Shown in pieces: positions 34,441-38,872 of a stretch of DNA of 64,000 bases. The position numbers were made by a program, and so were the translations under genes. Every line of letters starts with the position of its first letter. Position 1 is the stretch's first letter. A model generated the notes under the pieces. The model was not told where the DNA came from. It made no database searches and worked only from the letters and a program-made list of their open reading frames with translations. Source of the DNA: Anaerolineales bacterium (GTDB lineage Bacteria > Chloroflexota > Anaerolineae > Anaerolineales > UBA4823); assembly GCA_003105035.1 (NCBI GenBank), contig PQAL01000010.1:1-64000 (forward strand), written 5' to 3'.

Positions 34441-34469
34441 TTGACGAATCGGTGTTTTGCGGGTACAAT
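34441..34469 (+). promoter_or_regulatory. Promoter of tRNA-Ala and probably the T-box leader
   Basis: TTGACG (34441-34446) and TACAAT (34464-34469) lie 17 bases apart, a near-consensus sigma70 promoter. Transcription would begin near 34476, about nine bases before the tRNA. The preceding 34144-34440 shows nothing else recognisable. Confidence 0.7.
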
Positions 34470-34484
34470 CCGTGCTACATTTTT

Positions 34485-34557
34485 GGGCCCATAGCGCAGT
34501 TGGGAGCGCGTCTCAATGGCATTGAGAAGGCCGAGGGTTCGAATCCCTCTGGGTCCA
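34485..34557 (+). tRNA. tRNA-Ala (anticodon GGC)
   Basis: The 73-base sequence folds into a cloverleaf. The acceptor stem is GGGCCCA/TGGGTCC (one G-T pair), the anticodon stem TCTCA/TGAGA holds loop ATGGCAT with anticodon GGC, and the T arm is GAGGG-TTCGAAT-CCCTC. The discriminator base is A at 34557. CCA is not encoded; CTA follows. It reads alanine codons GCC and GCT. Confidence 0.95.
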
Positions 34558-34569
34558 CTAAAAGTCATG

Positions 34570-34849
34570 GCAGGAGTATTAAGCCATCCTTCAGCGAGCC
34601 GGGAGAGAGAGGTGTGAGCCCGGCATAGTGCCAAGGGAGCACGGAAAGCAAGGTTGAACTCGCCTGCCGCCCTTGATCACAAGGGCAGACTTCAGCAGTG
34701 AAGGCATCAATTGATTTAGCTGCTGGCAGGATTCGCCTGTTATCGCGATAACTGAGTGGCTGTGAAGGCCAGGTTTCGACCAGGTCTCTCAGCAATCAGG
34801 GTGGTACCACGGAGAAGACCTTCGTCCCTGTTAGTGGAGAAGGTTTTTT
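34570..34849 (+). promoter_or_regulatory. T-box leader, leucine specifier
   Basis: The base of stem I pairs GGCAGG (34570-34575) with CCTGCC (34663-34668). AGTA follows the 5' strand and GAA precedes the specifier on the 3' strand, as in typical T-boxes. The specifier is CTC (34659-34661), a leucine codon. The distal stem I region contains the AGCGAG and GGTG elements. The T-box AGGGTGGTACCACG is at 34798-34811; its TGGT (34802-34805) would pair with the acceptor end of a tRNA with discriminator A, which fits tRNA-Leu. A terminator follows. Uncharged tRNA-Leu should promote read-through. The likely target is leuS at 36422, although an antisense gene lies between. Confidence 0.88.
34818..34849 (+). 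terminator. T-box terminator hairpin
   Basis: ACCTTC (34818-34823) pairs with GAAGGT (34839-34844), with an inner TCC/GGA pairing, and is followed by a T-run. This is the intrinsic terminator competing with the antiterminator of the T-box. Confidence 0.85.
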
Positions 34850-34883
34850 GTTCTTTAAAAATACGACATAAGCAGAAATTGCA

Positions 34884-35471
34884 TCAGGCTACCGGCTCGG
34901 AGTCGATCACATTCAAGAAAACATCCAGCACTTCCGGATCAAATTGAGAGCCTTTTACTTTTTTCAATTCGGCCACCGCTTCTTCATGGGTGCGACCCTG
35001 ACGGTAGTAGCGATCCTCAACCATGGCCTGGTAGGCATCCGCAATGCCCAGGATACGCGCACCGAGTGGGATATTTTTCCCGCTCAGGCCCTTTGGGTAG
35101 CCGGTGCCATCATATTTTTCCTGATGCGCTGAGATGGTCGAAGCCAGGGATGGGTAGGCATCGATCGACGATACGATATTTGAGCCGATGGTTGGGTGCA
35201 TCTTGATCAGCATCCAGTCTTCTTCGGAAAGGATGGCTTTTTTCCTCAGTACCCGGTCTGAGATGCCGATTTTTCCGATATCGTGCAGGATCGACGCCCA
35301 GTAGACGATTTCTACTTCGTCATCGTTCATCTCAAGCTTTCGGGCGGTGGTGCTGGCCCATTTGGCCACCTTCGTGCTGTGCTCGCCGTTTTTCGATACC
35401 CGGCGATCAACGAACTTGGACATGCTGATCAGTAACTGGAGCCAGAGTGCTTGTTGTTGTGTGTTGGTCAT
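34884..35471 (-). CDS. HD-GYP-type phosphohydrolase
   Basis: A 195-residue HD-domain protein of the HD-GYP class, which typically hydrolyses cyclic di-GMP. Visible motifs are ILHDIGKIGISDRVL near residue 65, IKMHPTIGSNI near 92, and the GYP region AHQEKYDGTGYPKGL near 115-129, where the usual His-His-Glu appears as His-Gln-Glu. IADAYQAM follows. There is no receiver, PAS or membrane domain, so the protein is a minimal catalytic unit with a short N-terminal part. The gene lies on the minus strand between the T-box leader and the genes that leader probably controls. Its 3' end is only 34 bases from the T-box terminator, so T-box read-through RNA would be antisense to it. Confidence 0.87.
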   Translation of the reverse strand: MTNTQQQALWLQLLISMSKFVDRRVSKNGEHSTKVAKWASTTARKLEMNDDEVEIVYWASILHDIGKIGISDRVLRKKAILSEEDWMLIKMHPTIGSNIVSSIDAYPSLASTISAHQEKYDGTGYPKGLSGKNIPLGARILGIADAYQAMVEDRYYRQGRTHEEAVAELKKVKGSQFDPEVLDVFLNVIDSEPVA

Positions 35472-35591
35472 AGGATCTCTTCGCTGGTTGGAATGGTTTC
35501 TGGTTTCTCTGATGCAAAATCTATACCAGCTTGAAGGTAGCGTGGATCGCTCAATTGTAAGGACATTGTGTTTGTTGGATAGGTTGTAAGA

Positions 35592-36350
35592 ATGGAAGAA
35601 TTCGATTTTGATGCGGTATTCGATGTTGATGACTACCTGTATTTTTACAGTGAGGCCTTAACTGACGAGCGCACCGAGGCAGAGGTCAGTGCGCTGGTCA
35701 GCTTGCTTGGCTTGGATCAGCCAGCGAAAATCCTTGACCTGGCTTGCGGGTTCGGCCGTCATACCAACCGTTTGGCTACGCTCGGACACACCATGACCGG
35801 TGTCGACATCATGCCTGGCTTCCTTGAAATCGCTCGTCAGGAGGCTACCCGGATGGGCGTCCTGGTGGATTATCAGCAGGCGGATATGCGGCAAATAACC
35901 TTCGAGGATGAATTTGATTATGTCACGATCTTGTTTACCGCCTTTGGTTATTTTTCTGATGAACAGAACCTTCAGGTCTTGGTCAATGTTAGCCAGGCGT
36001 TGAAAGTAGGCGGCAGGTTCGTCTTCGATAGCATGAACCGGGATGCGATCGTAAAAAATTTCCTTCCCGCCACGGTTATAGAAAAGGAAGGTAACTTGCT
36101 TATTGACCGCATGTCCTTCGATAGCCTGCAAGGCAGGTTTTATAATAAACGGATCGTTATCAGGGATGGTGTTCGTAAGGATAAACCTTACTTTGTCCGT
36201 TTATATAATGCAAATGAGATCAAGGACTTGCTGGGAAAAGCTGGTTTGGAGCTTGAAAATGTTTACGGTGGTCTGGATCGAAAGGCGTTCACATCCGATT
36301 CTCGCCGAATGGTCGTGATCGCCCATAAACCAAGTGGCGTAACGGTTTGA
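35592..36350 (+). CDS. Class I SAM-dependent methyltransferase
   Basis: This 252-residue protein has the Rossmann methyltransferase fold. Motif I is ILDLACGFGRHTNRLA (about residues 40-55), the acidic end of strand 2 is GVDIMPG, motif II is QQADMRQITF and motif III is VTILFTAFGYF. The C-terminal half is beta-rich, as in small-molecule or tRNA-modifying methyltransferases. The substrate is not recognisable. It precedes leuS by about 70 bases on the same strand and may be co-transcribed with it from the T-box leader. No strong ribosome-binding site is seen before the ATG. Confidence 0.82.
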   Translation: MEEFDFDAVFDVDDYLYFYSEALTDERTEAEVSALVSLLGLDQPAKILDLACGFGRHTNRLATLGHTMTGVDIMPGFLEIARQEATRMGVLVDYQQADMRQITFEDEFDYVTILFTAFGYFSDEQNLQVLVNVSQALKVGGRFVFDSMNRDAIVKNFLPATVIEKEGNLLIDRMSFDSLQGRFYNKRIVIRDGVRKDKPYFVRLYNANEIKDLLGKAGLELENVYGGLDRKAFTSDSRRMVVIAHKPSGVTV

Positions 36351-36421
36351 TTACGACTCATTGAGATCAGGTGCTGGATGACTGAATAACCAGTTACTCT
36401 TCACATTTCATGGAGAATAAA

Positions 36422-38872
36422 ATGTCTGAATTAACGATTTATAACCCTACAGATATTGAACCCAAATGGCAGGCACGTTGGGAGAAGGAGGGTCTGTATC
36501 AGGCTGAGATTGATCCTTCGCGTACCAAGTTTTACGCCCTGACCATGCTGCCATATACTTCCGGAGATTTGCATATCGGTCACTGGTACGCCATGACCCC
36601 TCCCGATGCACGTGCCCGTTTTAAACGCATGCAAGGGTACAACGTTGTCTTCCCCATTGGTTTCGATGCCTTCGGATTACCGGCTGAAAATGCTGCCATC
36701 AAGAAGGGCATCCACCCCAAGACCTGGACCTATGCCAATATTGAGCACATGCGCAAACAGCTCAAAAGCATGGGAGCCATGTGGGATTGGCAGCGTGAGA
36801 TGATTTCCAGCGACCCGGAGTATTACCGTTGGACACAGTGGTTTTTTATCCAGCTGTACAAGCACGGCCTGGCATACCGCAAGTATTCACCGGTCGATTG
36901 GTGCCCTCACTGCCAGACCACTCTGGCGCGTGAACAGGTGCAGGGTGAAGACCGTCATTGTGAGCGGTGCGACACGCCGGTGATCAAGAAAGAGCTGGAA
37001 CAGTGGTTCTTCAAGATAACCAGTTATGCTGATGATTTGCTGGACTACTCCACGATTGACTGGCCCGAGCGTGTCAAGACCCTGCAAACCAATTGGATCG
37101 GACGTTCAGAGGGTGCTTCGGTAATCTTCCATAGTGAGCAGGAGGACCCGATTGAGATCTTCACTACTCGGCCCGATACGTTATGGGGTGCCACTTTTAT
37201 GGTACTGGCACCCGAGCATCCCCTGGTGCAAAAGATCACCGCTCCCACGAAAAGGGAAGCGGTTGATGCCTACATCCGCCAGGCTTCCCGGCAGTCGGAT
37301 ATTGATCGTGAAGCTTCCGATAAGGAGAAGACCGGTGTGTTTACCGGGGGCTATGCGATTAATCCGGTGAATGGCGAGCGGATTCCCATCTGGATCGCTG
37401 ATTATGTGCTGATGACCTACGGCACAGGTGCCATCATGGCAGTCCCGGCCCATGATCAGCGTGATTTTGACTTCGCCCGTAAATATGGACTGGAAGTGCG
37501 GGTGGTGATTCAACCCGCCGATATTGAGCCACAGGAGGGTGCCACCATGCAGGCTTCCGTTCCTGCTATTGGTGACATGGTCAACTCTGGACCGCTAACC
37601 GGCACTCCTGGTAAGCAAGCGTTCAGTTCAGCTATCGAATACATTGAATCACGGGGTATGGGAAAAGCTGCCGTCAATTATAAGCTGCGCGATTGGTTAA
37701 TCTCGCGGCAGCGCTATTGGGGTGCCCCCATACCGATGGTTTACTGCCAAACCTGCGGTTGGAACGCGGTCCCTGAAAACCAGCTGCCCGTATTATTGCC
37801 AGACGACGTTGAGTGGCAGCCCACCGGGGTCAATCCACTTACCATCCACCCGACCTGGAAGAATACCACCTGCCCGGTGTGTGGTCAGCCAGCTACGCGT
37901 GAGACCGATACGATGGATACCTTTATGTGCTCTTCCTGGTACCACTTACGTTACCTGAGCCCAAACTATGACCAAGGCCCCTTCCGCCAGCAGGATTACG
38001 GGTATTGGATGCCGGTGGATAACTATACGGGTGGCATCGAGCATGCCACCATGCACCTGATGTATACCCGCTTCTTCCACAAGGCACTGCGTGATATGGG
38101 CATTACAAAGGGTCCTGAACCGATGCTGCAGCTGCGTAACCAGGGGATTGTGCTGGGTGAAGATAGTGAGAAGATGTCGAAAAGCCGGGGTAATGTGATT
38201 TCACCCGATGAGCTGGTTGCCAGGTACGGCGCGGATTCAGTGCGCGCCTACCTGATGTTCTTTGCCCGCTGGGAGATGGGCGCGCCCTGGAGCAGCACCG
38301 GCATCGATGGTGCGTATCGCTGGTTACGCCGGGTCTGGATACTTTTCACGGACCCTGTTGAGAAAGGTAATCCTGATCCGGAGTTGCTTCGCGCATTACG
38401 CAGGAAGCTGCATCAGACATTGAAGCAAGTCACCCATGATTTCGAGGTGTTTGAGTTCAATACGATCGTCTCGGGTCTGATGGAGTTGCTCAATGAGATG
38501 TACCGGGCGCGTGAAAAAGGTGCTGCGGGTACGGTTGAATGGAACGAAGCTGTTGATGTTTATCTGCGGATGATGGCTCCCGTAACGCCACATATCGCTG
38601 AGGAATTGTGGGCTTTCTTGGGGAAACCCTACTCAATTCACCAGCAACCCTGGCCTGCCGTTGATTACGAAGCAGCAGCTGATGAGCTGATCACCTTAAT
38701 CGTGCAGGTGAATGGCAAGCTGCGCGACCGTATCCAGGTTCCAGTGGGCATCTCTGAACAAGAAGCTGAAGCTGCAGCTCTGCAGAGCGAAGCGATCAGG
38801 AAATTCCTGGAAGGAAAGCCTCCCCTCAAGGTGATCGTCGTTCCCGGACGTTTAGTCAACATCGTTGTCTGA
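36422..38872 (+). CDS. leuS: Leucyl-tRNA synthetase
   Basis: An 816-residue class Ia aminoacyl-tRNA synthetase that charges tRNA-Leu. The HIGH motif occurs as LHIGHW near residue 50 and KMSKS as SEKMSKSRGNV near 583. Between them lie the Zn-like Cys region (CPHCQTT...CERCDTP), the CP1 editing domain (about 220-415) with TTRPDTLWGATFMVLAPEH, and VYCQTCGW. An anticodon-binding and C-terminal domain follow. Length is usual for bacterial LeuRS. ATG 36422 is preferred over 36410 because GGAG at 36412-36415 lies seven bases upstream. A leucine T-box is encoded 1.6 kb upstream. A second promoter (TTGAGA at 36361, AATAAC at 36385) may also drive the gene. Confidence 0.97.
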   Translation: MSELTIYNPTDIEPKWQARWEKEGLYQAEIDPSRTKFYALTMLPYTSGDLHIGHWYAMTPPDARARFKRMQGYNVVFPIGFDAFGLPAENAAIKKGIHPKTWTYANIEHMRKQLKSMGAMWDWQREMISSDPEYYRWTQWFFIQLYKHGLAYRKYSPVDWCPHCQTTLAREQVQGEDRHCERCDTPVIKKELEQWFFKITSYADDLLDYSTIDWPERVKTLQTNWIGRSEGASVIFHSEQEDPIEIFTTRPDTLWGATFMVLAPEHPLVQKITAPTKREAVDAYIRQASRQSDIDREASDKEKTGVFTGGYAINPVNGERIPIWIADYVLMTYGTGAIMAVPAHDQRDFDFARKYGLEVRVVIQPADIEPQEGATMQASVPAIGDMVNSGPLTGTPGKQAFSSAIEYIESRGMGKAAVNYKLRDWLISRQRYWGAPIPMVYCQTCGWNAVPENQLPVLLPDDVEWQPTGVNPLTIHPTWKNTTCPVCGQPATRETDTMDTFMCSSWYHLRYLSPNYDQGPFRQQDYGYWMPVDNYTGGIEHATMHLMYTRFFHKALRDMGITKGPEPMLQLRNQGIVLGEDSEKMSKSRGNVISPDELVARYGADSVRAYLMFFARWEMGAPWSSTGIDGAYRWLRRVWILFTDPVEKGNPDPELLRALRRKLHQTLKQVTHDFEVFEFNTIVSGLMELLNEMYRAREKGAAGTVEWNEAVDVYLRMMAPVTPHIAEELWAFLGKPYSIHQQPWPAVDYEAAADELITLIVQVNGKLRDRIQVPVGISEQEAEAAALQSEAIRKFLEGKPPLKVIVVPGRLVNIVV

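Follow-up and report, generated by a model that had tools for sequence, protein, structure and literature searches.

A leucine T-box leader lying directly after a gene for alanine transfer RNA (tRNA-Ala) appears to control leuS, the leucyl-tRNA synthetase (LeuRS) gene, across a gene transcribed in the opposite direction, in what would be a T-box-gated noncontiguous operon. The stretch concerned, hereafter the window, comprises 64,000 nucleotides (nt) of contig PQAL01000010.1 from an Anaerolineales bacterium (assembly GCA_003105035.1) and is part of a 148-kb contig in a 4.45-Mb genome (G000). The noncontiguous operon is the reading that we favour, with moderate confidence, and what can be seen in the sequence comprises the parts of the locus, their order and conservation, the competing hairpins, a sigma-54-like element and the purifying selection acting on the opposing gene, which encodes an HD-GYP-like protein.

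From these we infer that tRNA-Ala and leader are transcribed together from the tRNA promoter, that read-through reaches leuS, that sigma-54 is used and that the HD-GYP gene is repressed. Polymerase would start at the tRNA-Ala promoter and produce tRNA-Ala together with the T-box leader; charged tRNA-Leu would lead to a stop at the T-box terminator, and uncharged tRNA-Leu, for which the anticodon GAG is expected, would let the antiterminator form. Read-through would then pass HD-GYP in antisense, together with the sigma-54-type promoter of that gene, and cross a methyltransferase gene before entering leuS, a single RNA thus serving as leuS messenger RNA (mRNA) and as a full-length antisense of HD-GYP. 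Leucine starvation would consequently increase LeuRS and, in cis, decrease HD-GYP.

The leucine T-box and the tRNA-Ala gene before it

The leader occupies positions 34569-34851 on the forward strand, its stem I starting at about 34569, upstream of the start of the match to the T-box family RF00230 (34645-34832, +; 52.3 bits; E 4.6e-10 in a 2-kb scan and 2.3e-10 genome-wide). Because the score lies below the Rfam gathering score of 93, a default Rfam scan missed the window T-box, and all 26 leuS T-boxes of relatives fall likewise under it (37.4-88.5 bits). The specifier reads GAA-CTC-GCC in GAACTCGCC, with CTC at 34659-34661, and AACTC is present in every one of the 26 T-boxes preceding leuS among 31 relative loci scanned. 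The T-box core (34798-34811) falls within an antiterminator hairpin bearing a 7-nt T-box bulge (34797-34831, +; -11.6 kcal/mol), which is built from bases shared with an intrinsic terminator hairpin followed by a T run (34817-34851, +; -11.5 kcal/mol), the two being mutually exclusive. Specifier codon, core and exclusive hairpins, the marks of a T-box, are all found here. Both competing hairpins are retained in the nine loci with an HD-GYP gene, where the terminator hairpin ranges from -11.5 to -21.8 kcal/mol; the loci were folded separately instead of counting base pairs, as their leader alignment held nine ungapped sequences with differing loop lengths. The stability of the whole-leader fold is ordinary (z -1.47) and was excluded from the evidence, a core-only match (L010, E 0.3) was left out of the T-box count, and L059, L064, L073 and L075 were left out of the RNA-family scans.

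Judged from its sequence, the window T-box is real and of the leucine type (CUC). The original prediction had described the specifier CTC, the T-box sequence and the terminator as intact and had matched the leader to leuS 1.6 kb downstream; the positions and competing folds agree with the former, and the leucine type, the shared AACTC and the presence of leuS 1.58 kb away with the latter. The other clear T-boxes of the genome all have a sense gene next (8/8), leaving leuS as the exception among nine, so that T-boxes seem usual in function here. From a by-eye reading of their first residues, the eight open reading frames (ORFs) concerned are pheS-, thrS-, ileS- (two), trpB-, valS-, serS- and trpS-like; the trpS-like ATG lies 508 nt past its T-box, with no antisense stop-free run of more than 56 codons within 600 nt after that T-box.

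The tRNA-Ala(GGC) gene (34485-34558, +) is separated from the stem I motif by 14 nt, and a sigma-70-like promoter, TTGACG-17-TACAAT (34441-34469, +; 10/12 matches), lies ahead of it as the likely start of the leader transcript. The region holds two sigma-70-like sites against 2.6 expected in shuffles; as this number matches the shuffles, the promoter is backed by its position and not by its score. Among relatives, a tRNA-Ala gene stands on the same strand upstream of the leuS T-box at 24 of 26 loci, in one case at a distance of about 680 nt. In a survey that entered 49 of the 80 named leuS loci returned, leaving out 31, 29 of the 31 T-box loci with Chloroflexota titles had it upstream, and two with Firmicutes titles lacked it. 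Of 60 loci examined, 56 have 14-119 nt between the end of the tRNA and the stem I motif; in 14 of these, including the window and five other HD-GYP loci, the spacer is no longer than 30 nt. Such a short spacer gives scant room for a promoter of its own, and therefore the leader is probably cut from the tRNA transcript. Thus, at least at loci with short spacers, tRNA-Ala and the riboswitch may be transcribed as a single primary RNA, and the window leader probably begins at the tRNA promoter.

The succession tRNA-Ala(CGC), tRNA-Ala(GGC), leucine T-box and leuS recurs across the Anaerolineales (window, 34485-34851; L041-L072; L126-L167), the CGC copy usually coming first and being missing at the T-box locus of the window. 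Six T-boxes, from two Dehalococcoides, are reported for Chloroflexi in the part of PMC2494555 available, and our literature searches found no description of a leader directly after tRNA-Ala.

The opposing HD-GYP gene and its place before leuS

The gap between the T-box and leuS (36410-38872, +; alternative start at 36422) contains the HD-GYP-like gene on the reverse strand (34884-35471; 195 amino acids (aa); Pfam HD_5, 7.4e-38), antisense to T-box read-through, and a sense gene for an S-adenosylmethionine-dependent methyltransferase (35592-36350, +), a homolog of which also lies 5' of leuS in five other genomes of the family. An opposite-strand gene between leader and leuS, an arrangement expected of a noncontiguous operon, is therefore seen in the window and in relatives. 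The original prediction was right to place HD-GYP on the opposite strand of the gap, but it overstated the share of that gene, whose 588 nt make up about 80% of the stretch to the next forward-strand gene and about 37% of the 1.58 kb, the methyltransferase gene being there too; it also overlooked tRNA-Ala(GGC) and the sigma-54-like element.

The order is conserved. When a profile of six gap HD-GYP proteins was searched against 38 family genomes, 11 clear orthologs were obtained, all above 240 bits, with the next best below 200, and nine of them lie antisense between a leucine T-box and leuS (G000, G006, G024, G023, G011, G018, G045, G042 and G041). These genomes span five genera (g1, g7, g24, g12 and g19), across which protein identity to the window copy falls to 43-52%, and the presence of the same order in all nine rules out an accident of placement in one genome. 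At seven of the nine loci HD-GYP is the sole gap gene, with its start codon 76-93 nt from that of leuS, and T-box control of leuS must there transcribe HD-GYP in antisense. Since order, hairpins and protein are kept in the nine genomes, the HD-GYP antisense RNA foreseen by the original prediction would be the expected product of read-through.

The protein matches the HD-GYP phosphodiesterases V-cGAP3 (5z7c, 5.6e-37) and PmGH (4mcw, 3.3e-31); HD_5 was found in the three proteins scanned and DGxGYP in all nine. The complete HHExxDGxGYP motif with all metal-binding histidines is not present, every gap protein reading HQExxDGxGYP, as do, for HQE, both orthologs located elsewhere (G013 and G051, genus g14), and in the pairwise alignment the window protein has a lysine at the position of PmGH E185. 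Among order-level homologs in larger frames whose motif was read (n = 18), HQE occurs in 11 and HHE in seven, which makes HQE a trait of the subfamily and not a sign of decay. In 400 sampled genomes of the order, with at most eight candidates scored per genome, the other profile matches listed, at E <= 1e-62, belong to open frames 384-1,647 aa long. The ratio of nonsynonymous to synonymous substitution (dN/dS) was 0.092, 0.086, 0.102 and 0.079 in four close pairs of genera g7 and g19, with synonymous sites near saturation, and a fifth pair was saturated. These substitution patterns indicate that the gene is under purifying selection, and a decaying gene is ruled out by the 0.08-0.10 of the four pairs.

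The sigma-54 consensus is a TGGCAY-N5-TTGCA-like -24/-12 element, with GG and GC ten bases apart. An element of this type, TGG(C/T)A(C/T)-N5-(T/A)TGCA, stands upstream of HD-GYP in all nine loci, its first base 54-62 nt before the ATG; in the window it is TGGTATAGATTTTGCA (35513-35528, reverse strand), the putative promoter of the HD-GYP gene. It is the only long invariant block in the intergenic alignment, where eight of the 12 invariant columns fall within it and a ninth two bases past it. The chance of a best match of at least nine of 11 positions is 0.9-4.5% per locus in Markov shuffles, values that cannot be freely multiplied because the loci are related. The strict pattern TGGYAYNNNNNTTGCA has 16 sites in the window's genome, the one at 35513-35528 included, against none for the reversed pattern; one of them lies 50 nt ahead of an rpoN reading frame, and a search of 22 chosen genomes found rpoN in 21, including all nine with the HD-GYP locus. 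Thus, both the promoter sequence and the presence of RpoN are consistent with sigma-54, by which HD-GYP appears to be driven, and the part of PMC3162934 available places sigma-54 in some Chloroflexi. The frames after the strict sites (L237-L252) include rpoN, an FtsZ-family protein, a hydrogenase delta subunit and a roadblock protein. The element was also considered as a leuS promoter and rejected, being absent from all 51 tested leuS upstreams without HD-GYP and present about 100 nt upstream of the unlinked orthologs of G013 and G051.

Lability of the gap and competing explanations

Several observations weigh against control of leuS across the HD-GYP gene, the first being the lability of the gap. 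By a tally made by hand, the stretch from T-box to leuS is readable in 21 of the 38 family genomes, and 12 of these have no HD-GYP (G001, G004, G007, G010, G012, G015, G020, G022, G048, G049, G050 and G053); no leuS T-box was found in 16 others, mostly for want of sequence. This variability, together with the several kinds of sense gene found in the gap, would fit a permissive space holding two independent units, where the T-box reads through to leuS and the antisense RNA has no effect on HD-GYP, and the orthologs that carry the same sigma-54-type element away from leuS (G013 and G051) point to a gene and promoter independent of the T-box. We regard this explanation as rather unlikely: the antisense placement is held in five genera despite the divergence of the protein, and neutral read-through over an active opposing promoter would not be expected.

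Further points concern the signals for transcription. TATAAT occurs in six of 56 spacers between tRNA and stem I, and hairpins in several, so some relatives' leaders may start after the tRNA. A sigma-70-like site (10/12) inside the methyltransferase gene, 292 nt before leuS, could be a promoter of leuS itself, and the stretch from T-box to leuS holds one or more such sites at seven of the nine HD-GYP loci. If leuS used its own promoter downstream of HD-GYP, the T-box would be orphaned or would only end the tRNA-Ala transcript, as might be the case in G051, where a terminator-like end is visible after tRNA-Ala(GGC) and no T-box core was found (L227, 570-690), its HD-GYP ortholog lying elsewhere; moreover, in G008 and G046 more than 4 kb before leuS is readable and neither T-box nor HD-GYP was found there. 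An independent leuS promoter nevertheless seems improbable to us, as the promoter-like sites occur at about the number given by chance (0.1-1.2 expected per locus in shuffles), and specifier, T-box core and both hairpins are kept in all nine HD-GYP loci, which would be needless for an unused T-box. Read-through could also be interrupted: the window has a terminator-like hairpin on the forward strand at about 36124-36147, where shuffles give 3.7 overlapping calls, and the G011 gap contains a stronger hairpin (0.24 expected).

Control in the reverse direction, where a sigma-54-driven HD-GYP transcript would run antisense into the T-box and tRNA-Ala and damp leuS, is the least probable of the explanations considered. 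Only tens of bases separate the HD-GYP stop codon from the T-box terminator, and in seven of the nine loci no minus-strand terminator-like site was found from the leuS start back through the T-box; still, the window has a weak one at 34939-34923, and the HD-GYP transcript may end by Rho or at the T-box hairpin. A two-way switch, combining a starvation RNA that would encode LeuRS and silence HD-GYP with sigma-54-dependent HD-GYP transcription that would enter the T-box and tRNA-Ala leader and damp leuS, is put forward tentatively.

The remaining points against the noncontiguous operon concern its history and the activity of the opposing protein. The tree of HD-GYP proteins unites those of the gap with the g14 orthologs (100/100), together with one long-branched G022 row, and a single clade of the nine gap rows is compatible with the data (approximately unbiased test, p-AU 0.317). 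The leuS tree, whose backbone is weak and which left out matches below 60% identity as well as G012, G022, G027 and G040 (short or no N-terminal match), rejects a single clade of the nine genomes (p-AU 0.007), so that the arrangement may be an old one with losses, may have been assembled repeatedly or may have spread by transfer. Regarding the protein, glutamine replaces the second histidine of HHE, PmGH H277, whose change to alanine essentially abolishes hydrolysis of cyclic di-GMP (c-di-GMP) according to the part of PMC4159591 available, so activity on c-di-GMP is doubtful here. Consequently, the idea in the original prediction that read-through lowers c-di-GMP hydrolysis, coupling aminoacylation to c-di-GMP signalling, loses much of its force, as each of the nine gap proteins carries HQE.

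Gap length in the order varies between some tens of bases and about 1.5 kb, and the comparison with relatives that had been proposed with the original prediction, now carried out, finds leuS downstream of the T-box, either immediately or with other genes in between, the recognisable ones being sense at the loci examined, HD-GYP excepted. Antisense genes as a general feature of the gap were considered and set aside, as the antisense ORFs of L132, L144 and L047, the three scanned against Pfam beyond the HD-GYP copies, have no match and are taken for shadow ORFs. A sense aminotransferase class IV gene (ilvE-like) lies in the gap of four genomes (L143, scanned; L146, L148 and L043/L151, by BLAST, the last two loci being one genome), a position between leucine T-box and leuS that fits leucine control. 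An alpha/beta hydrolase gene, also sense, is found in L070, with a relative in L072. Relatives of the methyltransferase gene precede leuS in G010, G012, G016, G022 and G048, and in G012, G022 and G048 they sit between two leuS genes. In G001, G012, G015, G022, G048 and G050 (L043, L044, L052, L053, L228 and L231), two leuS genes are near neighbours, a paralog of about 48% identity coming after the T-box and before the usual leuS. A contig labelled as Deltaproteobacteria (L141) carries a leuS 68% identical to that of the window, from a mislabelled bin or by transfer, with neither T-box core nor tRNA found in the 4 kb upstream.

Comparison with known systems

If the noncontiguous operon is real, one T-box RNA would regulate two genes oppositely, tRNA charging would be tied to a sigma-54 signalling gene with no protein regulator dedicated to the task, and the locus would offer a conserved example, open to testing, of a riboswitch gating a noncontiguous operon; attention is also drawn to T-box leaders directly after tRNA genes in Anaerolineales. 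In a survey of riboswitches acting in antisense, the T-box row gives 15,851 / 107 / 1.00, which we take to be the total, the antisense candidates and the P value (PMC9943018, available in part). Our literature searches found no paper on the arrangement of T-box, antisense HD-GYP and leuS, an entry in the supplementary tables of that survey being possible.

The leader shares with T-boxes (RF00230) ahead of leuS the CUC specifier, the stem I motif, the T-box core and the competing antiterminator and terminator, differing from the usual leuS T-box in the opposite-strand gene between leader and target and in its position directly after a tRNA-Ala gene. With HD-GYP phosphodiesterases such as PmGH (4mcw) and V-cGAP3 (5z7c), the window protein shares the HD_5 domain, the HD pair and the DGxGYP motif; unlike them, it stands alone at about 195 aa, with HQE in place of HHE and a lysine at the E185 position of PmGH.

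Repression of HD-GYP by the antisense RNA would, by analogy, have precedents in the Staphylococcus aureus noncontiguous operon, Listeria aspocR and Clostridium ubiG. The menaquinone noncontiguous operon of S. aureus, as described in the part of PMC7154746 available, likewise has an interspersed gene transcribed against the rest; here, in contrast, a T-box would gate the operon RNA, the opposing gene has a sigma-54-type promoter and the locus is known from its sequence. In the Listeria B12 riboswitch with aspocR and the Clostridium acetobutylicum S-box with ubiG (PMC7154746 and PMC9943018, both available in part), a conditional terminator gates an RNA antisense to a convergent gene, as it would in the window; unlike those antisense RNAs, the one proposed here would also be the mRNA of leuS, the sensor's own target.

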